Shown here: positions 4,061-19,887 of the stretch, one piece after another
Layout of the letters: the number at the start of each line of letters is the position of its first letter
Numbering within the stretch: position 1 is the stretch's first letter
Origin: a virus
Virus record (IMG/VR): IMGVR_UViG_3300005513_000032
Coordinates: 1 to 21,095 of that record
Reading direction: 5' to 3' (one strand)
Length of the DNA stretch: 21,095 nt
Program-made: the position numbers and the translations under genes
The notes under the pieces: model-generated
The model's input: only the letters and a program-made list of their open reading frames with translations
Database searches by the model: none
What the model was told of the DNA's origin: nothing

Positions 4061-5032
4061 TCAGCTCAGGTCAAGAATCGACGCGAGCGGCTTCTCGTCA
4101 CGCACCACCAGCGTGACTTCGGTACGAATCTGCCACTGCTTGGCATCGCCCGTGGTCGCCATCTGCTCCGACTCGAACGGGCGCAACTGACCGAGGGCCA
4201 GCTTGTCCGTGTCGATCAGGTAGGCCGAAGCCGTCAAGCCCAGTCCGCCCGACGCCATCACGCGGTCAGGAACCACCTTCGTGACGCCGAAGTCATGGCC
4301 GTAGAAGGTGAACGCGGTGTTCAGCACCAAGCTGCCATCCGCCTTGCTGGACGGCACGGTCTGCTGCCGGGTCACGTTGCCGGTCAGTGCTGATACCTTC
4401 TACTTCTGCGCCGGAGGAACCAGCAGCATGGTCGAGTCACCACCATTCTGGTACGCGGCCAGCACCGCAGCCTTCACCAGAACGTCGGAGATGGCACGGG
4501 CCGTACCTGCCACCGGAGCCGTGTTGGTGACCGGGTTCGGAGCCACGCCAGCGCCCGCACCCACGCTGGCGTTCAGCGCAATGAAGCCGTACAGGCCGCG
4601 CATCTGGCCTGCAACGCCCGAAGTGCCAGTGACGGCAGCGCCGTTGCCGATGGCTGCCGCCTCGATGTCGCGACGAAGCTCAACCATCTTCTTCGCTTTC
4701 AAGCGATTGATTTCGGACGATCGGCCGTATTTCTTCACCGTCTCGGCGGTGTTGGACACGCTCAAGGTGTCCTGGAAGATCTGCGTGCGGTTGTTCAGCG
4801 GGCCGGGCTGGGTCTGCGCGGCGTAAGCGGCGTCGGCGCCTTCAATCGCAGCATTCGCGGCGTTGGTGGCGCGGTAGCTGTCACGGGTCCACTCGTGGAA
4901 CACGTTCGACACCTTGATGCGGTCGATGGCACTGACCAGCGGGGTGTCCTACGGGTTGAAGTTGTAGATGCGGTCTTCCACATCCTCCGCCACACGGACG
5001 ATGGACGGGGTAATCAGGGTGTTCGCAGTCAT
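4061..5032 (-). CDS. Major capsid protein (SU10/DUF5309-like), two in-frame TAGs
   Basis: The frame runs from ATG 5032 (AAGGA 7-8 bases upstream) to TGA 4063-4061, 323 residues, with TAG at codon 28 (4951-4949) and codon 211 (4402-4400). Key segments are EDVEDRIYNFNP-(TAG)-DTPLVSAIDRIKVSN, FHEWTRDSYR, and VPPAQK-(TAG)-KVSALTGN. The NP-x-DTP and HEW blocks and the PPAQKx block near two-thirds of the length are typical of the DUF5309 HK97-fold capsids. A polar residue such as Gln fits both TAG positions. It follows the scaffold by 9 bases. Without suppression only 27 residues would be made. Confidence 0.85.
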
Positions 5033-6106: not shown

Positions 6107-6340
6107 TTACCCGATCGCCGCATTGATGACGTTGATCAGGCTCGTTACTGCCTCCTCTGGTGTCTTGCCAATTCCGCAGAACTCGCCGCTAGCCTCACCA
6201 AGCCGCACCAGGCCGGATTCGTTACCTATTTCAGCGCACCAACTCGGCGCGGATTGGTCGCCGTCGAACGATAGGGCGAACTCCTTGTCGCGCGGCTTGA
6301 TTTCAATGGCAAGTTCAATAAGTTTTGACAGGTTACTCAT
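6107..6340 (-). CDS. Small hypothetical protein, HicB-like motif
   Basis: This 77-residue gene starts at an ATG overlapping the preceding TGA (ATGA) and ends at TAA. The segment WCAEIGNESGLVRLGEAS followed by GIGKTPEEAVTSLINVI recalls the small alpha/beta fold shared by HicB-type proteins (W-x-A-x-I, then TPEEA and a helix). No toxin-like partner is adjacent, so it is unlikely to be a toxin-antitoxin pair. It is one of two genes in the virion module without an in-frame TAG. Role unknown. A 138-base gap with no evident gene follows before the scaffold start. Confidence 0.65.
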   Translation of the reverse strand: MSNLSKLIELAIEIKPRDKEFALSFDGDQSAPSWCAEIGNESGLVRLGEASGEFCGIGKTPEEAVTSLINVINAAIG

Positions 6341-6618
6341 CGCCGAAACACTCCCTTGAACCGTTCAGCGCGTGATTGCTCAGCCTCGATGGCCTTGCTC
6401 TGCATCTTGCCGGTGATCATCGTCTGTTCCAGCACGTCACCAAGCCGTTTATGGCACTGGATCATGCGCCAGAGGTGATCGCGCTTCGCCTCGTCCGCTT
6501 CGATCTGCCAGCGAGCCAGGATTTCATCCTTGAGCTGCGCCATCGTCTCGATATAGACGCGGTTTGACAGTACATCGGCGGCGAGTTGACCGCGTTCAAG
6601 CTCTTCCTATGGGGTCAT
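6337..6618 (-). CDS. Small helical protein between portal and scaffold, TAG at codon 4
   Basis: Translation begins MTP-(TAG)-EELERGQLAADVLSNRV and then continues MAQLKDEILARWQIEADE. The ATG at 6618 overlaps the portal TGA (ATGA) and the stop TGA overlaps the next ATG, so the 93-residue frame with TAG as sense fits exactly between its neighbours. A later in-frame Met (6543) would give 68 residues, but it lacks the overlapping junction and drops sequence that continues the same amphipathic helix. The protein is highly charged and predicted helical; no known function. With TAG at codon 4 termination would leave a tripeptide. Confidence 0.7.
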
Positions 6619-8846
6619 TCATTCTCGCCCTATTGTTCGCCCTTCGTGGCGGCCTGCAATTCGGCAATCTGCTGCTGCAACTGCGCAATCTGCTCGTTCT
6701 GCTGAGCGTCGATGTCCTTGTGCGCCATATCGTGCGCGGTGGCGACGCCGTGAATATGCGTGTCGTGCGCTTTGCGCTGAACATCAGCGGCCTTGACCCC
6801 GATATTTCCCTGATCGGCCTGCGCCTTGACTCCGAGTGAGGCCATCGCATGCTGGTGTTTCTGATCCGCCTCACGCGCCCGCTGCTGCAATTCCATCTGC
6901 TTGAGGTACGTGTCCGACTGCTGCTGCGCGCTCATCTGCTTGAGCTGGCCGTTTTCTTGACCGAGTTGTTCCAGCTGCTGCTTGGTCTGCGCCATTTCCT
7001 GCTGTTGCTGCTGTTGCTGAGCCTGATACGCCTGCGGGTTCGGCGGCATACCTGACGGCTGCGGACTAACGAAGCGTTCCGGTTCCTTGAACTCGGCGGC
7101 CTGCACGTACAGTTTGACGGTTTCGGCCACCTGAGCTGGCGTGACGATGCCGAACGGGGCAGCTTGCATCTGCACCTGCATCAGGCCCATGACGCGCGCG
7201 GCAAGTTGTTCCTTGCTGCCCGTTCCCAAGCCGACCTTGATCGTAGTGTTGAACTGGTCTTTCCACTCGGACGGATTCACAGCGACCCACGACCCGTTGA
7301 CCTGCATCTGTTCGGTCTTGTCCTGGAACTGGATCGCCAGCTTCAGCATCTTGCTGAAAAGCCCCTTCATGCCGACCGCGAACATGCGCGACATCAGCTC
7401 AAGGCGCATGTCTGCCTTTTGCGTGATGATGCTGACGCCGGTCGCGGTCTTGTTTAGCGAGTTGGCGTCGGTGCCCTGCGAATAGCGCGTGAAGCCGGTG
7501 CGGTTCTCTTTCCATCCCTCAAGCCATTCGTTGAACTCGTAGGCGGGAGCGCCGAGAGCGGGCTGTACGATGGGCTGAATGGCGGTGTTGGCCGGACCGT
7601 GGCCGCGCACCGCGCCACCAGGCCGATTCTCCAGCCAGTCGTCCATGTTCACGCCAGCATCCAGGTTGATGTAGGTCCGCTGATTGACGGACAGCATCAT
7701 ATTGTCTTGGATAGCGCGGATGACGTTGGTGCGCAGCTTCTGTGGCTGCAACGCCATGTCGGCAGGGCAGTCGCCGAAGAACGCATGCGGACGAGGAATG
7801 GGGCATATCCACACGAACGGATGGCCGTCGCACTTTTCGTACTCGACCAGCTTCTGCTCGATCATGTGGCAGCACAGCCATTCGGCAATGCCGTCGCCGT
7901 CCGCGTCCAGCTTGATATAGACCTCGCTGCACTGATACAGCTTGTGGCTTTCGTGCGGCTCAACAGCCGTGTAGTCGCTGTTCAGGCCAAGCTAGGCAAG
8001 CGTTTCGCTGTCGTAGCGCGAGTTGCTGCCGGCCTGCCCGATGTCGGTCAGGTCGTAACCCTCTTCCTCTAGCTCAAACTTTCGCTTCGGGTAGACGTGG
8101 GCAATCATCGCCGGATCGTCACCCCAGCGCGCATTCGCATCCACGCGCACTTCGTGAGGGGCGCATGCGGCCACCTTCACCGCCATGCGTTTATCTTCCT
8201 TCTTGAGCGATACCGTCAGCGTCGGTGCGGCGGGCTGCTGCGGTAGCGGCTGTCCATCCGGGCCATACTGCGCTGGCATGGTCTGTGACGGCTCAACCTG
8301 AGGTTCGTCGTCAAGCTCCCAGCCCGACTACTGAAGCATCGCCACCTGCTCCTGCGTGATGCCGGAATAGGTAGTTTGCAGATCCTCGAATTCCTCCTCG
8401 GCCCACACCTTGACGAAGCCGACCTTCTGGATCAGTGAATCCTTGAACCAGTCGTACATGATGCCTACACCGTCGTTGCGGGTGTAGAACAGGTAATTAA
8501 CGTAAGCCGTGGCGAGCTGGGCAACCTGATCCTGATCGGGTCGGCGCGCCTGGAACTCGACCGCCTCGTCATCCGTCACAAACGGCTTCATGATCTGCGG
8601 CAACATCGCCTCGATCGTGTCAGCCACGTCGGTCGCTACGAAATCGCTGCGGTCGTCAATCTCTGGCGGGGCTAGTTCGCCAGTAGCTTCGGCGTTGTAA
8701 TATTCAAGGTTGCGAAGACGCTGCTAGGCAATCTCGGTGCCCGGACCGCCCATGCTGTTTTCCAGCGCCATGCGGCAGGCAAGCTCGACCTCAGCATCCG
8801 TCATCTTGGCGTGCTTGATTGACGCCTTCTTGGACGTGTATGCCAT
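6615..8846 (-). CDS. P22-like portal protein, four in-frame TAGs
   Basis: The start ATG overlaps the terminase TAA (TAATG at 8848-8844) and the true stop is TGA 6617-6615, giving 743 residues. TAGs are codons 41 (8726-8724), 173 (8330-8328), 285 (7994-7992) and 739 (6632-6630); all lie in one frame. Family signals are DDRSDFVATDVADTIEAMLP, YDWFKDSLIQKVGFVKVWAE, EVYIKLDADGDGIAEWL, NVIRAIQDNMMLSVNQ and GVSIITQKADMRLELMSRMF, all typical of podovirus P22-type portals that form the dodecameric DNA gate. The C-terminus is a Gln-rich coiled coil. Read with the standard code this gene falls into several pieces. Confidence 0.9.
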
Positions 8847-10096
8847 TAGCGGGTAAGCCTGCGGTAGCTGATTGGTTGCATATCTTCGTTAACCATCTTG
8901 GGCGCCACACTTGCCATGTAGCGGAACATATCGGCGCCGTGACTCCACTCGTCGTGGACGGGTGCGCCAGGCTCGCCCGTTGAAACAGGAACGCCGCGCT
9001 TGTACCGCTTGAGGCACTGAATCAGCCGCTCGCACTTGAGCTTGTCGATGTAGAGCTGGCCGAACGCCATGCGTGCCGCCTTAATGCCTGTCTCGACCGG
9101 CTGAATCGGAACGATTCCCACATCCCAGCCAAGCTCGCGCATGATCTGCTCGGCACTCTTGCCGGTCTTGTAGTCACCGTGGGCGCCGTCGTGAGGTAGC
9201 CAGAGACGGCCCCAGTTGAGGTTCTTCTGTTTCAGCTCAGCCGAACACCAGTCGAGCGTCTTGTGGTCAACCTCGATGTACTTGATCAGCCGAAGCGACG
9301 AGATATGCCGCTGGCATAGGCCAATCGCCATCTTGTCGTTCCAGCCCAAGTCGAAAATGACGTGAACCTTGAGCGCCGGGTCATACGGGAATAGGCCAAT
9401 GCGCCCCTCTTCCTGCGCCCTGGCAATCTCGTCAGCGTAGATCGCGCCAGTCACGGCAGGCTTGCAGCGTCCTTCCCATATGTTGTCGTAGTCAGCCCTT
9501 GGTGTCGTGGCGAGCGCGTGTTGCCGCTCAGCCTCAAGCACATCAGGGAACCACGGGTTGTCCGCGTAATTGATCTGCACCACCACGGAATCAGGGGGCG
9601 GATTCTCGATGAAACGGACGTAGGTTTCGTCGGTGTCCAGCTCGGGGTTTAGCGTGATGGTGATTCGCGACCCGTCTTTGCGGATCGTCGGGATAAGAAT
9701 GTCCCACGATCGTTTGCTGATCGCCTGGGCTTCCTCGGCCCAAACGTCATCAACACCCTCGAACGACTTGATCGACTCGGCGGTCTGGTCGCTTAGGCCG
9801 GAAAATAGAAACTCGGTTCCGTTCGCGCCCTTGATGATGTTCTGCTGGACTTCGTAGAACGCGCCAAGGCCCATGGATTGAATCTGGTCACTCAGGAGCT
9901 TGTGCACGGAATCGCGGATGGACTTCTGCACCTCGCGAGTGCACAGAAATCGTCTTTTCGACTAAGCGCCCCGGATCAGGTAGGAGCGAGCAACACCCCA
10001 CGACTTAGCACCACCGCGGCCACCATGCAGGATCGTGTATCGCTGTGGGCCAAACAAGCACTGCAGCTTGGCGGGGAACTCAATCTGGCTTGACAA
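8846..10096 (-). CDS. terL: Terminase large subunit, one in-frame TAG
   Basis: The 416-residue frame runs from TTG 10096, inside the end of the small subunit gene, to TAA 8848-8846. Walker A is GGRGGAKS (residues 25-32), and the Walker-B-like segment is DDVWAEEAQA followed by ITITLNPE. The nuclease half shows VIFDLGWNDKMAIGL and the late acidic motif HDEWSHGADMFRYM. TAG is codon 45 (9964-9962), between SYLIRGA and SKRRFLCTREVQKSIRDSV, so the ATPase P-loop and the rest of the enzyme can only be joined by reading through it. The TTG start is chosen because an in-frame TGA lies two codons upstream and no better start precedes the P-loop. Confidence 0.9.
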
Positions 10097-10346
10097 AGGT
10101 CACCGTCAGGCTGGTCTTGAGTGGGTTGTCAGGATCGCCAGACACCGTCATCGGCAGAACCTTGCCAACCAGCGTAAGGAACGCGTTCGGGTTGGTCTGC
10201 GCCTAGGTCAGCAGATACTTGGCTCCGCCCGCCTTGTCGAGTGCCGTCAGGATCATGGCCTTTACGTCAGCCGTCACCTTATTCGGTACGCCTTTTGGCC
10301 TACCCTTGCCTGCATTTCCCCTATTCGCGCCTACTTTGGGTTCCAC
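10080..10346 (-). CDS. terS: Small terminase / DUF5681-like packaging protein, one in-frame TAG
   Basis: GTG 10346 is preceded by GAGGAAA at a good spacing; an in-frame TAA lies seven codons further up, so this start is favoured. The 88-residue product has a basic N-terminus with GKGRPKGVPNK (AT-hook-like, DNA-binding) and a helical C-terminal half reading AKYLLT-(TAG)-AQTNPNAFLTLVGKVLP. I recall proteins with the pattern YLxxQAxxNPxAFLxLxGKVLP upstream of large terminases; Gln is the usual residue at the TAG position (codon 48, 10205-10203). It overlaps the large subunit gene by 17 bases. It is shorter than most small terminases, so the name rests mainly on position. Confidence 0.7.
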
Positions 10347-10421
10347 GGACTTTCCTCGGGCTGCTTACGCGTCACCCATCATTGCTACGGATGCTTCTAT
10401 CTCAGACCACGGTATGTGGCT

Positions 10422-10592
10422 TCAGTCATCGTCTTCACTGTTGGCGGGGGCGGACGGAATCGAACCGTCATAAGGCGGGTTAGAGCCGCTGTCAGCACCC
10501 AAGCGCGCCCCACTAAAGATCGCATCCCAATGGCTGGCAAATGTCGCCTGGTCCACGCTGAACGGGCGTGGCGCTGATCCCTTACCGTTCAT
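10422..10592 (-). CDS. Small phage protein whose 3' half contains the suppressor tRNA
   Basis: ATG 10592 to TGA 10424-10422 encodes 56 residues: MNGKGSAPRPFSVDQATF, ASHWDAIFSG, then a low-complexity tail ending NSEDDD. The first ~28 residues strongly resemble a family of short phage proteins starting M-x-GKGSAPRP-F/Y-S-V and ending with a FD/WD-xIFG motif, normally soon followed by the stop. Here the frame continues through the whole tRNA-like sequence (10442-10512), which codes for ARLGADSGSNPPYDGSIPSA. The start overlaps the preceding small gene by 11 bases. Function unknown. If the tRNA is processed out, this message must be destroyed. Confidence 0.65.
   Translation of the reverse strand: MNGKGSAPRPFSVDQATFASHWDAIFSGARLGADSGSNPPYDGSIPSAPANSEDDD
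10442..10512 (-). tRNA. Putative amber-suppressor tRNA, anticodon CUA, Gln-like
   Basis: Read on the minus strand from 10512. Acceptor 5' strand TGGGGCG pairs at six of seven positions with CGCCCCC (10452-10446), with a U1-C72 mismatch. The discriminator is G and CCA is encoded (10444-10442). The T-arm is perfect: GACGG, loop TTCGATT, CCGTC. The anticodon loop is CTCTAAC with U33, CUA at 10483-10481 and A37, on a stem with four Watson-Crick pairs plus an A-C. G73, G2-C71 and G3-C70 are glutamine identity features in E. coli. Oddity: only 15 bases lie between acceptor and anticodon stem, and no clean D-stem is visible. It could fail a strict tRNA model. Confidence 0.7.
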
Positions 10593-10701
10593 ACGGCTTC
10601 GGCACAGTCGGCTTAACCGGATTCGTCGTCTTGACCTTGTACGTCAGCCAGCTATAGGCGCAGACGATGGCGAGGAGGAGTAGCAGGGCGATGGCGATCA
10701 T
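10582..10701 (-). CDS. 39-residue single-span membrane protein
   Basis: ATG 10701 overlaps the Rz1 TGA (ATGA), and the frame ends at TAA 10584-10582. The product is MIAIALLLLLAIVCAYSWL followed by TYKVKTTNPVKPTVPKPYER: one N-terminal hydrophobic span and a basic, proline-rich tail. Coupled start, hydrophobic span and position directly after the spanin pair suggest a lysis-associated protein, perhaps a second holin or antiholin; this is inference. Confidence 0.55.
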   Translation of the reverse strand: MIAIALLLLLAIVCAYSWLTYKVKTTNPVKPTVPKPYER

Positions 10702-10970
10702 GGCTGCAGCCCCTTTATCCTTGCCAGCTTGTCGTTTGAAGCGCCTAGGCATGCCTTGAGATGTATCGCGTACTCGACCAGTGAGCCGTTCGTCAGCTCG
10801 CTAGGCAACGCAACCGTGCAAACCTTTACTAGCTCGGCAGGCAAGGCAACGTAGACCGGAACCTTGACCTCGACCGTCTCAGTCCTGATTGCCGGTTTCG
10901 CGCAAGCGGCCAGCGACAACAGCAGGGACGCGAGTATTAGCCCACGCTTTGACAGTCGGCTCGCGCTCAT
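10698..10970 (-). CDS. Rz1: o-spanin, Rz1-like outer-membrane lipoprotein
   Basis: The 90-residue product begins MSASRLSKRGLILASLLLS and has lipobox LAAC (Cys23), predicting signal peptidase II cleavage and an outer-membrane lipoprotein. The gene starts inside Rz in another frame (92-base overlap), the usual nested or overlapping spanin arrangement. The periplasmic part is longer than lambda Rz1 (VEVKVPVYVALPAELVKVC and on) and less proline-rich. With Rz it is expected to fuse inner and outer membranes in the last step of lysis of a Gram-negative host. Confidence 0.8.
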   Translation of the reverse strand: MSASRLSKRGLILASLLLSLAACAKPAIRTETVEVKVPVYVALPAELVKVCTVALPSELTNGSLVEYAIHLKACLGASNDKLARIKGLQP

Positions 10971-11301: not shown

Positions 11302-11399
11302 ACGGCGAACCTGCATACCGCATAGGCACCGCCGATCAGAATCCACAGCTTCGGGTTGAGAATCGTGTAGACGATCCGCTCTTTCCGCGTGTAAATCAT
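11292..11399 (-). CDS. 35-residue putative membrane protein
   Basis: ATG 11399 overlaps the protease TGA (ATGA), and the TGA at 11294-11292 overlaps the Rz start, so the gene fits exactly between its neighbours. The product is MIYTRKERIVYTILNP, then a hydrophobic stretch KLWILIGGAYAVCRFAVWA. A basic N-terminus and one hydrophobic helix suggest a small inner-membrane protein, possibly a holin or antiholin. It is too short for function prediction. Confidence 0.55.
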   Translation of the reverse strand: MIYTRKERIVYTILNPKLWILIGGAYAVCRFAVWA

Positions 11400-11974
11400 C
11401 GCCCCGCCTCATCAAACTGCGTCTTGGTGAACATCAGTGGGAAAGCTCCCATCACCTTCATGAATCCGTTCGGGCTGATCTGCAGATCCAGCACTGATGT
11501 CACGGCGACTAGCTGGCCGTCCATGCTGAAAAGGCCACTGCCGCTATCGCCGAAGTAGCCGTTGTAGTCGATGACGTACAGCGTCTGGCCGTTGATGACG
11601 GCATAGCCCGACACATATCCATGCCGGTACATGTCGCGCAACCTGCCGGGGTTGCCGAGGTTGAACACTTCCTCGCCCTGGTACACATCGGGCCTCACTT
11701 CCACCCAATGTGTATAGGTTGCGGTTACGCGGACGATCGCATGGTCACGATGGTCAAGCTCAACCCGTAGCACTTCAACGGGAACGCTATCGACCGCGAG
11801 ATTCTTTGTGCCGGTCAGGCAGTGTTCGGCGGTCAGGATCGCATGCGGTCCAATCACCGTTCCGCTACAGGTGCCATCATCCATTCCCAGCAGAACGGTG
11901 GCGTTGTGCACTCGCGCAATCGGGCTGACGCAGCTCGCCAGCCCCACACACAGTAGGGCTGCGAGGATGCGCAT
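11396..11974 (-). CDS. Secreted trypsin-like serine protease lipoprotein
   Basis: The 192-residue product begins MRILAALLCVGLASC, a signal peptide with lipobox LASC (Cys15). A chymotrypsin-fold protease domain follows: TCSGTVIGPHAILTAEHCL with catalytic His51, HRDHAIVRV with Asp77, and YFGDSGSGLF with Ser144. The triad and the GDSG motif are intact and in the right order and spacing, so an active enzyme is expected, anchored in a membrane on the periplasmic side. It sits in the lysis cassette ahead of the spanin genes. Possible roles are degrading envelope proteins at lysis or altering the lysogen or infected-cell surface; the sequence does not decide. Confidence 0.8.
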   Translation of the reverse strand: MRILAALLCVGLASCVSPIARVHNATVLLGMDDGTCSGTVIGPHAILTAEHCLTGTKNLAVDSVPVEVLRVELDHRDHAIVRVTATYTHWVEVRPDVYQGEEVFNLGNPGRLRDMYRHGYVSGYAVINGQTLYVIDYNGYFGDSGSGLFSMDGQLVAVTSVLDLQISPNGFMKVMGAFPLMFTKTQFDEAGR

Positions 11975-12544: not shown

Positions 12545-13252
12545 TTACAAAAGCGTTTGTATGCGACAACTCTTTGATAGATTATCTTTCGCCCAAAGCG
12601 GCCGGAGATTCGTTAGCGCCCACGCGCGGCGCAATTCGGGGTCGTCCGATCCGGTAATCGTGAAGCTCGCCAGCGGAATGATGTGATCGACATGCCATTT
12701 GCCGTAGTTGTCCCAGCTCATGCCCTTAGCGAATTGGCGTTCCAGATGGGCGCGAAGTTCATCCTTCCCGTACCAAAGAAGATCAATCCATCGTCTGCCA
12801 CACTTCTTGTCGCGCAAAACACCCCATATCTGACGCCCCATGCGCCTAGCTGGGCCGCGCATGCTGGCGGACTTTCGCTTGCGTAATAGTTCGGCGTTGC
12901 CCGGTGCCGACTTCCATTTATCCAAACTTTTACGCTGGGACGCTTTGGACTTTTCCGGGTTAGCGGATCGCCATTTAGACGCCCTATCCTTTACGGTACC
13001 CTTATTTTCCAGATACCACTTTTGAAGTCTTTCTTTGGCTTTTTCACGATTTCTAGCATGCCATTCTCGGCTAATAGCCAAGTCTCTTTCTCGGCGCCCT
13101 GGATTATTGAGCTGTATCTCCATCGCCCTTGTGCGATCACATATACGGCAGATTGAGTTATATCCGTCCGAATTTCGCGCCTTCCTGGTGAACCCCTCAA
13201 GGGGCTTTTCCAAACCGCACCGCGTGCAGGATTTCGTCACTTTGTCATTCAC
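12545..13252 (-). CDS. HNH endonuclease, homing type, in the lysis cassette
   Basis: The GTG at 13252 overlaps the endolysin TGA (GTGA); 235 residues to TAA. An N-terminal zinc finger (CTRCGLEKPLEGF with a later ICRIC) leads into a long basic helical region (REKAKERLQKWYLENKG) and a C-terminal HNH domain with WHVDHIIPLASF and NLRPLWAKDNLSKS. This architecture is that of free-standing phage HNH nucleases, which behave as selfish DNA. It separates the endolysin from the spanins and is followed by an apparent gene remnant. No in-frame TAG. Confidence 0.85.
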   Translation of the reverse strand: MNDKVTKSCTRCGLEKPLEGFTRKARNSDGYNSICRICDRTRAMEIQLNNPGRRERDLAISREWHARNREKAKERLQKWYLENKGTVKDRASKWRSANPEKSKASQRKSLDKWKSAPGNAELLRKRKSASMRGPARRMGRQIWGVLRDKKCGRRWIDLLWYGKDELRAHLERQFAKGMSWDNYGKWHVDHIIPLASFTITGSDDPELRRAWALTNLRPLWAKDNLSKSCRIQTLL

Positions 13253-13713
13253 GGCGGCGTCTCGCACAATTTGCGTTCGGCAGCGCGGCGCTTGACCAGC
13301 CCATTTAGCTGACGGCCTTGGCTATACGTCCACCTGCTCAGCTCGCCGCAGAACGGCAGTCCAGCGTTAAGTTTGCGCATCAGTCCGGAATGACAGGCGG
13401 CGGTCGCGCCAACGTTGTATTCCCAGCTCAGGATGGCAGCAGCTTGGTTGCGCGTGATCGGCCGCTGAATACACGGCTCAACCTTGGCCCACTCGATGGC
13501 TAGGCGCTTGTCGAGCCGCTGCAGGCATTCATCCATCGTGGCATGCATACCCAGCCTGATATCCGGGCCTGTCTCGCCAGCGCACAACGTCGCGGTGCCA
13601 TTCACATCGTCGTAGGTGTGCGGGACAACGCCCTCGTAGTGCGCAACCAATGGCGGCACGATCATCAGCAACGCTCCGATGGCTATGCCGGATCTGCCCT
13701 TAGGCGCCGGCAT
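13249..13713 (-). CDS. SAR endolysin, glycoside hydrolase 24 lysozyme
   Basis: The 154-residue product starts MPAPKGRSGIAIGALLMIV: a weakly hydrophobic, Gly/Ala-rich signal-arrest-release segment (about residues 9-24). The catalytic triad of the T4-lysozyme family follows with the standard spacing: Glu27 in HYEG, eight residues, Asp36 in YDD, five residues, Thr42 before LCAGET. Later motifs TRNQAAAILSWEYNVG and LPFCGELSRWTYSQG are usual for P22/P1-type endolysins. It would be secreted by the host Sec system, held inactive in the membrane, and released when the holin depolarises it. It overlaps the holin gene by 14 bases. Confidence 0.9.
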   Translation of the reverse strand: MPAPKGRSGIAIGALLMIVPPLVAHYEGVVPHTYDDVNGTATLCAGETGPDIRLGMHATMDECLQRLDKRLAIEWAKVEPCIQRPITRNQAAAILSWEYNVGATAACHSGLMRKLNAGLPFCGELSRWTYSQGRQLNGLVKRRAAERKLCETPP

Positions 13714-13968: not shown

Positions 13969-14223
13969 TTATTTGATGGGTGTCACTTTGCCGGGCTTGC
14001 GGCTGGGGCAGCGCATGGAGCCGGTGGCGTTGTCCTCACCCGTGATCGCGCCGGTCTTGTACTCGACGAACAGGGCGTTGAAGCCGTGCGTATCGGCATA
14101 CCAAGCGGTGCCGTGCGGGAAGATGACCTGACCCTTTTCGCACTCGACGTATTCGGACTCGCCGTCAAGCTCGACCTCGATTTCGCCAAGGTCGATTTCT
14201 TCGTCCTCGGGTTCGTCGGTCAT
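13969..14223 (-). CDS. Small acidic protein, first gene of the late operon
   Basis: The start is ATG 14223, with GAGG 5 bases upstream, giving 84 residues: MTDEPEDEEIDLGEIEVEL, then CEKGQVIFPHGTAWYADTHG and ALFVEYKTGAITGEDNATG. An upstream GTG (14280) would add 19 residues without a good ribosome-binding site. It is very acidic at the N-terminus and ends in a basic KPGKVTPIK tail. It is probably a small cytoplasmic protein; the function is not recognised. Confidence 0.6.
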   Translation of the reverse strand: MTDEPEDEEIDLGEIEVELDGESEYVECEKGQVIFPHGTAWYADTHGFNALFVEYKTGAITGEDNATGSMRCPSRKPGKVTPIK

Positions 14224-14592
14224 GGCTGCCTCGTTGAATTGGTCCGGGATAGCGCACCACGGCTGCGTTGACTGGCTCACGCCGGTCGTTTCGGTGTCCG
14301 CTGCTATGGCGGCATTTCAGGCCGTCCGGCATGGCCGAGACGCACCGAAATGGATTGGGAAACGGCTGTCGTCACAGCCTCACTGCGCACGGGTTACAAA
14401 TCGACGGCCAGGTAACCGGGCCTCCCGAGATCGCCACACCCGCTAAAGCGTGGCCGTTATATGCACAGTTCCCAAAGGTGAAACCGCCTCGATCTTTCAG
14501 GGATGTTGGCGGCGTGAGGCGGTGAAAGTTCACTTTTCGTCTCACTCGCGTCCACGCTACATCATGAATCGGCGATCTAGATTTCCGTTCAG
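14224..14592 (-). other. Gene-free leader between early and late operons
   Basis: About 370 bases without a convincing gene on either strand. On the minus strand it contains an inverted repeat CCGCCTC / GAGGCGG (about 25 bases apart, each flanked by TTTCACC), a possible promoter (14456-14484), GGTTAC / GTAACC, and a compact hairpin GGCTGT-gacg-ACAGCC (14364-14379) followed by GTTTCCC. This matches the layout of a lambdoid late leader (promoter, early hairpin terminator, antitermination), but no element is strong alone. Confidence 0.4.
14456..14484 (-). promoter_or_regulatory. Candidate late promoter
   Basis: On the minus strand GTTTCA (14484-14479), 17 bases, TATAAC (14461-14456). The -10 is good, the -35 poor, as is common in late promoters dependent on an antiterminator or activator. 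It sits at the start of the only long intergenic gap ahead of the lysis genes. Confidence 0.3.
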
Positions 14593-16990: not shown

Positions 16991-17287
16991 CTATTTCGTG
17001 CAAGCCATCCTTGAAAACCTTGCACTATCTTTGTTGCCATCACTGGCAAGGTAATAGACGTTCCTCCGACTCACTCCGAGTCGCTCCGCCGTAACATCCG
17101 GCCCCAGCGTCGGCAGCAACTTCGCCGCCTCAATAGCTTTGCGGTCACGGTTTGCGCCCTCGTCAATGGCTATCATGTTATTTATGGTTTCCGCGCTGAA
17201 CTTCTCGCAGCGAGCAACTGACCAGCCGCAATCGTGCAGCAGCTCGGCCAGCTCACCCAACTTCGCATGTGCGGCTTGGCTAATCAT
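16991..17287 (-). CDS. Helix-turn-helix protein ending at TAG
   Basis: The 98-residue product begins MISQAAHAKLGELAELLHDC. Near residues 66-82 it has a helix-turn-helix-like segment (VTAERLGVSRRNVYYLASD), suggesting DNA binding. Start ATG 17287 has AAGGGGTG overlapping the preceding stop. The only stop is TAG at 16993-16991. This is the only gene in the window that appears to end in TAG; if UAG were sense here the reading would continue into the small basic protein downstream for 167 residues in total. Because that gene has its own ribosome-binding site, I take TAG as the stop. Confidence 0.6.
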   Translation of the reverse strand: MISQAAHAKLGELAELLHDCGWSVARCEKFSAETINNMIAIDEGANRDRKAIEAAKLLPTLGPDVTAERLGVSRRNVYYLASDGNKDSARFSRMACTK

Positions 17288-18867: not shown

Positions 18868-19051
18868 AACGGCCACCCGCACGCCTTAGCCAGTCCGCGA
18901 TAGACCGGCATCGCCTCAGCCAGCGCCATCATTTCCGATGCCTTAGCGCGCCAGTGCGACCGATGCGTGCCAGATTGGTCGTAATGGCCTGCACCGTTGC
19001 GCGAGTCGCAGATTTCACGGGCGAGGGATTCGAGTTTTCGAAGTTGGTCAT
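18864..19051 (-). pseudogene. Small early gene with a 1-base frame break in an A-tract
   Basis: From ATG 19051 (overlapping the methylase TGA) the frame reads MTNFEN and soon meets a stop. The -1 frame reads KLESLAREICDSRNGAGHY, then SHWRAKASEMMALAEAMP and GLAKACGWPL, ending at a TGA that overlaps the NinB-like start. That frame has no start codon of its own. One extra A in the AAAA tract (19038-19035) would join them as MTNFEKLESLAREI, 62 residues, with both ends in ATGA overlaps. It is either a real or sequencing indel, or a slippage site. Confidence 0.6.
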
Positions 19052-19887
19052 GCGATCAGCCTCTGTTGTGCCTGCATCGCATGCGCGGGCTCGTTAAACC
19101 AAAGAGACTCCACGCGCTCCCTCGCTCCATCCGCGTGAGCTGCACGATCAACGCGGAACCAGTCGCCATATAATCCGTTATAGAGTTCGGACGGATAGCC
19201 GGAAAGAACGACCATTCCCTTAAGCCGCTTAAGTCCATCTGCCAAAGTTACGTGCTGCTCGTCAGAAAGCTCATGCTTATAAGACTTTCGCTTAAGGTCA
19301 TGATTGACTTTCACGGATCTGGTTGAATGCACATATGGCGGATCAACGTAATGCAGTGTTTCTTCACCGTCCTGATGCACCATCACTGCCATTGCATCGC
19401 GTTGCTCGATTACCACGCCGCGCAGCCTTTCGATTAACGGCTCAACTGCGTCAGCATAGTTAGCCCAGTCATGCGCCGGCGTCGTTCCACTGCGACTGCT
19501 ATTAGCTCGGAATCCAGATAGCTCACCACATGCAGCGGCGCTGCCGAACCCCTGAAAGCTGCGCAGAATTGTTCGCCGAGCCTGCTCGATGGGATCGTTA
19601 GATGGAACATATGCGGCAACGAACTCAGCCCTACTGAAGGGCGTAAGACGTATTGCTTCATGCAGCGCGGCGCCGTGGTCACGCATAACACGAAACACGT
19701 TGACTATCTCGCCATCCAGGTCGTTGTAGACCTCTGCATAGCTGCGCGGCTTCCTGAGTAATACCGAGCCACCACCGCCGAATGGTTCAACATAAACCCG
19801 GTGCGGCGGAAGGTTGGTGATTATCCACGGGGCCAACTTCCATTTCCCGCCGTGATAACGAACAATTGGTCTTGTGAGAGATTTCAC
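19048..19887 (-). CDS. N6-adenine DNA methyltransferase, D12/Dam class
   Basis: The 279-residue product starts at GTG overlapping the upstream TGA. It shows IVRYHGGKWKLAPWI, the S-adenosylmethionine motif VEPFGGGGSVLL (35-40), NDLDGE (55-60) and catalytic DPPY (182-185) in HYVDPPYVHST, followed by HVTLADGLKRLKG and LSGYPSELY, the usual order for Dam/DpnM-type enzymes. No restriction partner is adjacent, so it is probably an orphan methylase that protects phage DNA or marks it for replication or packaging. Target site not predictable. Confidence 0.9.
   Translation of the reverse strand: MKSLTRPIVRYHGGKWKLAPWIITNLPPHRVYVEPFGGGGSVLLRKPRSYAEVYNDLDGEIVNVFRVMRDHGAALHEAIRLTPFSRAEFVAAYVPSNDPIEQARRTILRSFQGFGSAAACGELSGFRANSSRSGTTPAHDWANYADAVEPLIERLRGVVIEQRDAMAVMVHQDGEETLHYVDPPYVHSTRSVKVNHDLKRKSYKHELSDEQHVTLADGLKRLKGMVVLSGYPSELYNGLYGDWFRVDRAAHADGARERVESLWFNEPAHAMQAQQRLIA

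Follow-up and report, generated by a model that had tools for sequence, protein, structure and literature searches.

In tmRNA (ssrA), one RNA carries both tRNA and coding functions, with the open reading frame placed between the tRNA halves and both parts acting in a single molecule. At the locus described here, unlike in tmRNA, the bases of the tRNA would themselves code for protein, and their two uses would exclude one another. Among phages, TAG-recoded genomes (genetic code 15) that carry a suppressor tRNA are already known, for example in crAss-like phages (PMC9523058, PMC10607447). Theta ribozymes adjoin phage suppressor tRNAs and have been proposed to act in their maturation, and the trigger of the code switch in recoded phages has been called poorly understood (PMC10879173). 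In mycobacteriophage Fionnbharth, a tRNA-Lys overlaps the 3' end of gene 37 on the opposite strand (PMC10865867).

The window, by which we mean the whole stretch of 21,095 nucleotides analysed (positions 1 to 21,095 of virus record IMGVR_UViG_3300005513_000032), carries a predicted suppressor tRNA inside a small protein gene. As in the crAss-like recoded phages, TAG is predicted to stand for glutamine, the phage encodes a CUA tRNA and TAG occurs in phage genes (PMC9523058, PMC10607447), but the phages studied here are of about 40 kb with one relative in Dyella, their tRNA lies in frame inside a gene that heads the recoded operon, and in relatives the same place is taken by unrelated tRNA bodies. 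The theta ribozymes offer a parallel in that a special processing context is proposed to control the supply of suppressor tRNA and with it the code switch (PMC10879173); here, in contrast, the context would be an overlapping protein gene, and the window contains no match to any Rfam family at or above that family's gathering score. The Fionnbharth case is similar because a phage tRNA overlaps a protein gene and changes its C-terminus (PMC10865867), whereas the overlap described here is on the same strand, wholly nested and conserved in frame in many relatives. We found no precedent for a same-strand, in-frame nested tRNA gene in the open-access literature searched. If the reading proposed below is true, the same bases of one DNA strand specify both a working tRNA and a protein that is translated, and this dual use has been conserved across the clade while the tRNA was exchanged.

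The minus-strand ORF starts with ATG, runs for 56 codons to a TGA stop and encodes the protein MNGKGSAPRPFSVDQATFASHWDAIFSGARLGADSGSNPPYDGSIPSAPANSEDDD (Table 1). The only tRNA that ARAGORN reports in the window, with the anticodon CUA and an encoded 3' CCA, lies wholly within this ORF on the same strand, with 80 nt of the ORF on its 5' side and 20 nt, stop included, on its 3' side. The initial annotation had described a suppressor tRNA nested in a sense-oriented gene of 56 codons, and its coordinates, sequence and open frame were all correct. Relatives of the locus, some of them on metagenome contigs, are designated by L-numbers; L001, a contig of 41 kb, contains most of the window (13,248 bases compared, zero mismatches).

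Table 1. Features at and around the nested tRNA; positions are those of the window except where another locus is named.
Feature	Position	Strand	Basis and remarks
Small "KGS" protein gene, contains the tRNA	10422..10592	-	56 codons; N-terminal family in many phages
Conserved N-terminal segment MNGKGSAPRPFSVDQATFASHWDAIF and first part of a Ser codon, 5' of the tRNA	10513..10592	-	
Predicted compact 71-nt suppressor tRNA, CUA	10442..10512	-	ARAGORN, covariation with five relatives, identity elements
Short in-frame tail after the tRNA: remainder of an Asn codon, SEDDD, TGA	10422..10441	-	
Micro-ORF MTEATYRGLR-TAG-KHP-TAG-Q-TGA, overlaps the KGS stop	10379..10429	-	sequence, relatives
In-frame TAGs of the micro-ORF	10397-10399 and 10385-10387	-	
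Small terminase subunit candidate	10080..10346	-	by position; one in-frame TAG, 10203-10205
Large terminase (Terminase_3)	8846..10096	-	one in-frame TAG, 9962-9964
Portal protein (SU10_portal)	6615..8846	-	four in-frame TAGs
Major capsid protein (SU10_MCP)	4061..5032	-	two in-frame TAGs
Rz1-like LysC lysis gene, upstream	10698..10970	-	no TAG
Phage lysozyme, upstream	13249..13713	-	no TAG
Tandem nested tRNAs in relatives	L234 about 6282-6596; L237 about 14057-14380		reverse-complement coordinates

To the Rfam tRNA model (RF00005) the window tRNA matches with 18.1 bits, below the gathering cut-off of 29; its D-arm is reduced, the anticodon stem has an A.C mismatch at one end, and shuffled sequences fold with energies that are just as good (z = -0.38), single-sequence folding being uninformative. 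Canonical tRNAs scoring 46.9-56.7 bits occupy the same place in seven other nested relatives. The window tRNA falls into a compact class of 71/72 nt with six members (the window, L012, L025, L174, L227 and L233), and a single cloverleaf accommodates an alignment of all six, with pairing in 97.4% of cells; it has six acceptor pairs, five anticodon pairs, five T pairs and a short D-arm, CGC/GYG, whose loop has four bases. Changes on both sides are found at 8 of its 19 pairs, and the covariation score is 0.449, as against 0.028-0.063 in slid controls. Because of this covariation within the compact class, we take the predicted 71-nt element of the window to be a genuine tRNA, though a compact one.

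Under the standard code, in-frame TAGs break the small terminase candidate, the large terminase, the portal, the capsid and other late genes; with TAG as a sense codon these genes are whole. TAG makes up 16 of 3375 late-gene codons and 0 of 3165 codons in the other called genes (Fisher test, P = 3 × 10-5), and all 13 late genes stop at TAA or TGA. All genes that use TAG as a sense codon are downstream of the tRNA (boundary at 10346); of those upstream none does, and one (16991-17287) ends in TAG. Across the loci compared, TAG in TerL goes together with a CUA tRNA upstream, and no in-frame TAA or TGA was seen in their matched TerL stretches. At four of the terminase TAG columns the relatives carry Gln in 118 of 118, 107 of 119, 93 of 114 and 92 of 116 cases; several other TAG columns are mixed, with Gln the leading residue overall. 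The bacterial tRNA-Gln reference determinants are G73, G2-C71, G3-C70, a weak 1-72 pair and U35 (PMC9976931), and the acceptor ends of the nested CUA tRNAs, with a mismatched 1.72, G2-C71 and G73, match most of the acceptor determinants among them (for the acceptor and frame counts the 5' end of the L257 tRNA was set one base upstream, giving 79 nt). The window tRNA has a U1.C72 mismatch in place of U1-A72, together with G2-C71, G3-C70, G73 and the anticodon CUA, and so agrees with the Gln identity set, which predicts charging with Gln. ARAGORN labels it tRNA-Pyl because its anticodon is CUA, a label that we set aside since the identity elements and the terminase TAG columns point to Gln. With a CUA tRNA, in-frame TAGs in genes that end in TAA or TGA and TAG columns led by Gln, this genome has the marks of a TAG-recoded phage with a suppressor tRNA, and in the late (structural) genes of its clade TAG is predicted to encode glutamine. 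The CUA anticodon and the TAGs of the late genes bear out the earlier description of the tRNA as a suppressor.

A CUA tRNA follows the NWDxIF segment directly or closely in 19 distinct loci (the window/L001, L003, the L004 group, L007, the L010 group, L012, the L013 group, the L016 group, L025, L029, L229, L233, L234, L237, L239, L242, L257, L268 and L269), it lies outside the ORF in none of the 19, and the frame is open through the tRNA in all of them; because these loci share ancestry, such counts overstate the number of independent events. The tRNA bodies vary widely, from 71 to 106 nt and with short as well as long variable arms, and the Gln-type acceptor end is kept. In L234 and L237 a tandem pair of tRNAs is nested in one ORF and the frame is kept through both, the second tRNAs having the anticodons Asn (GTT) and Gln (TTG) according to ARAGORN. 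A pattern search that used letters of the N-terminal segment and the tRNA only, and was blind to the tail, recovered three new nested loci (L257, L268 and L269), each of which is in frame and carries the conserved tail described below. The terminase tree places the nested members in two groups, both with good support, and unrecoded relatives come between the two; the nesting may have a single origin. We also observed loci (L021-L024 and L244) in which a CUA tRNA is followed in frame by the conserved tail but neither a start codon nor a KGS segment is clearly present upstream, and four (L174, L231, L232 and L242) in which an ATG that shares the frame of the tail spans tRNA position 1 and may serve as an alternative start.

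An open frame across the tRNA proves little by itself, because 36 of 40 Dyella genome tRNAs, our host control, are also free of TAA and TGA in the corresponding frame, and we rejected it as evidence when taken alone; in the window tRNA two of the three frames are without TAA or TGA. When all stops are counted, the ORF frame is interrupted in 1 of 21 nested tRNAs, by a TAG and in no case by TAA or TGA, as against 22 of 40 Dyella tRNAs, mostly by TAG (Fisher test, P = 8 × 10-5). TAG within the tRNA-coding part occurs in L013 and L016, and in L016-L018 a TAG stands exactly at the tRNA 5' end. The phase at which the ORF enters the tRNA offsets the length of the tRNA, such that entry phase plus length equals 1 modulo 3 in 20 of the 21 nested tRNAs, with only L013 deviating: tRNAs of 71 nt are entered in phase 2, those of 75, 87 and 90 nt in phase 1 and those of 79, 94 and 106 nt in phase 0. 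With about 12 tRNA clusters and equal phases assumed, the probability of such constancy is roughly 10-4, an approximate value in view of the shared ancestry. The linker that the 21 tRNAs would encode in the ORF frame consists to 72% of Gly, Ser, Asn, Pro, Ala and Thr and is nearly neutral, and the other two frames give basic products and are closed more often. As far as these comparisons go, the clade-wide conservation of arrangement and frame exceeds what would be expected by chance.

The N-terminal segment follows the pattern MGKGSxPRPxSVDxxTFxxNWDxIF, which recurs in many phages, as the initial annotation had recognised when it spoke of a recurrent small phage protein type. The small KGS protein has no match among the Pfam, PHROG and NCBIfam models, a DNA similarity search of the phage collection with the 171-nt ORF returned only short tRNA-like matches, and a search with the full ORF gave weak matches only. 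Among 18 relatives, differences in the N-terminal segment are distributed over the three codon positions as 0.316, 0.299 and 0.582, with 984 synonymous and 254 non-synonymous single-nucleotide codon differences. The expectation that relatives lacking the tRNA would stop after IFG did not hold: in L027, L028, L032 and more distant loci the protein continues for about 10-80 residues beyond IF, with unrelated tails. Nor did we find the C-terminal protein sequence conserved over this stretch without tRNA pairing, a pattern that would have spoken against the reading in the initial annotation; in the nested relatives the stretch still holds a tRNA, one of different sequence.

Beyond the tRNA, 11 of the 19 loci (the L004 group, L012, L229, L233, L234, L237, L239, L242, L257, L268 and L269) carry a conserved tail, IYxDxxTGxxVxExWW, in frame with the N-terminal segment. 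Across 20 tails the differences by codon position are 0.23, 0.237 and 0.476, a pattern that is gone in shifted frames, and there are 702 synonymous and 342 non-synonymous single changes, with non-synonymous changes prevailing when the frame is shifted. The frame is also maintained across additional sequence, as in L229, where about 40 codons lie between tRNA and tail, and in L242, where about 38 codons precede the tRNA. A TAG is present in 12 of the 20 tails, about 27 nt after the tRNA, in 11 cases at the same tail position and in one a codon earlier. A search for the tail in cultured phages found none, weak matches to minor tail proteins being judged chance. The tail of the window protein consists of no more than NSEDDD, and its coding sequence overlaps the beginning of the micro-ORF, the conserved tail having been lost or never present; the same 20-nt distance from tRNA to the end and an acidic tail are seen in L003, L007, L010 and L016. 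With so short a tail, translation of the window ORF through the tRNA is inferred mainly from homology with its relatives.

Many relatives thus combine, at the sequence level, a tRNA, TAG recoding, nesting and a frame that continues into a tail with a coding signature, and we think it quite likely that the region is used both as a tRNA and as protein. Each transcript would then be either translated through the tRNA region, yielding a small protein with a tRNA-encoded linker rich in Gly, Ser, Pro and Ala, or cut by RNase P and 3' nucleases, releasing the decoder, and on any one RNA molecule the two outcomes would be mutually exclusive. In this respect the comparisons support the earlier suggestion that a single transcript could yield either the protein or the tRNA.

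Several features of the locus could be read differently. The protein might be functional only up to about NWDxIF, in keeping with the ease with which ordinary tRNAs leave this frame free of TAA and TGA, with the TAG at the tRNA 5' end in L016-L018, where the standard code would end the protein, and with the six-residue tail of the window; we regard this as quite unlikely in view of the tail with synonymous changes that 11 distinct loci keep in frame with the N-terminal segment, the offset of tRNA length by entry phase and the avoidance of stops in the ORF frame. That the window element is a decayed pseudo-tRNA, with TAG read by another tRNA or by read-through, would suit its low Rfam score, reduced D-arm and stem mismatch, and is very improbable given the strong covariation of the compact class, the lack of Rfam tRNA matches in the 41-kb contig L001 at an E-value threshold of 0.001, the 16 in-frame TAGs of the structural genes, and a Dyella prophage that has the same tRNA class and 6 TAGs in its terminase.

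Tail and tRNA could also form a mobile or selfish cassette with one insertion site, in which the frame is kept only to spare the host gene. The widely differing tRNA bodies at the same site, the presence of the tRNA in two groups of the terminase tree, the tandem tRNAs of L234 and L237 and, in L025, an ORF resembling an HNH endonuclease directly 3' of the tRNA all fit such a cassette, but the tRNA corresponds to the TAG codons in the late genes of this same phage; as a full account we consider it unlikely, and as an origin story it is compatible with dual use. The initial annotation had proposed that the RNase P cut destroys the message for the small protein, separates lysis from packaging transcripts and so switches between late programmes. 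The lysis genes (lysozyme and Rz1-like LysC) and the terminase/structural operon are indeed located on either side of the tRNA, and the lack of a standout sigma-70 promoter or terminator at the site (one promoter-like match, 12045-12017, is about the chance number) fits one long transcript. However, tRNAs are commonly excised from polycistronic mRNAs, with no switch necessarily involved, and the sharp boundary that we see is one of TAG usage and not of transcription. This switch seems improbable to us; a connection with the change of genetic code agrees better with what is seen.

Under the dual-use reading, decoder supply would follow late transcription because the decoder heads the operon whose TAGs it reads; it would rise with that transcription, and ribosomes translating the host gene would temper it. 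That the tRNA/protein arrangement has a regulatory role is plausible, though in our view somewhat less likely than not. Downstream, the micro-ORF of Table 1 is also found in L003, L007, L010, L013, L016, L025 and L029, in the relatives with the form MTNWRRFRE-TAG-VP-TAG and synonymous codon changes; in L007 CAG replaces the first TAG, and in L010 its end overlaps the start of the next gene. It is possibly a TAG-sensing leader peptide. A self-gated decoder, in which host-gene translation competes with suppressor tRNA release on the same RNA and an amber codon in the tail or in the micro-ORF directly downstream senses whether the decoder is present, is speculative and, we think, unlikely; with such a sensor, the phage would time its own genetic-code switch. 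The arrangement offers a concrete handle on the trigger of that switch in recoded phages.

The prophage in a bacterial isolate makes dual use testable. TerL of L025 is 99% identical to that of locus L209 in Dyella sp. SG609, whose 432-kb isolate contig (L209, L247 and L248) contains a TAG-recoded phage genome with a tRNA at 412270-412340. TerL of this phage contains 6 TAGs and the gene after it contains 8, and the long forward-strand phage-like ORFs upstream of its tRNA (403004-405048 and 408103-408996) contain no TAGs. The HNH endonuclease-like ORF that directly follows the nested tRNA in L025 (4953-5474) is also found in L209, and ORFs of this kind may explain the exchange of tRNA bodies.

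The small terminase candidate has no Pfam match. Near the lysis genes the window carries a gene for a trypsin-like peptidase (11396-11974), and it also has one for a D12-class adenine methyltransferase (19048-19887). Two extra tRNA genes, either Thr and Ser or two Ser, lie 5' of the suppressor tRNA in each of L004 (2740-2907), L005 (1273-1440) and L007 (1100-1277).
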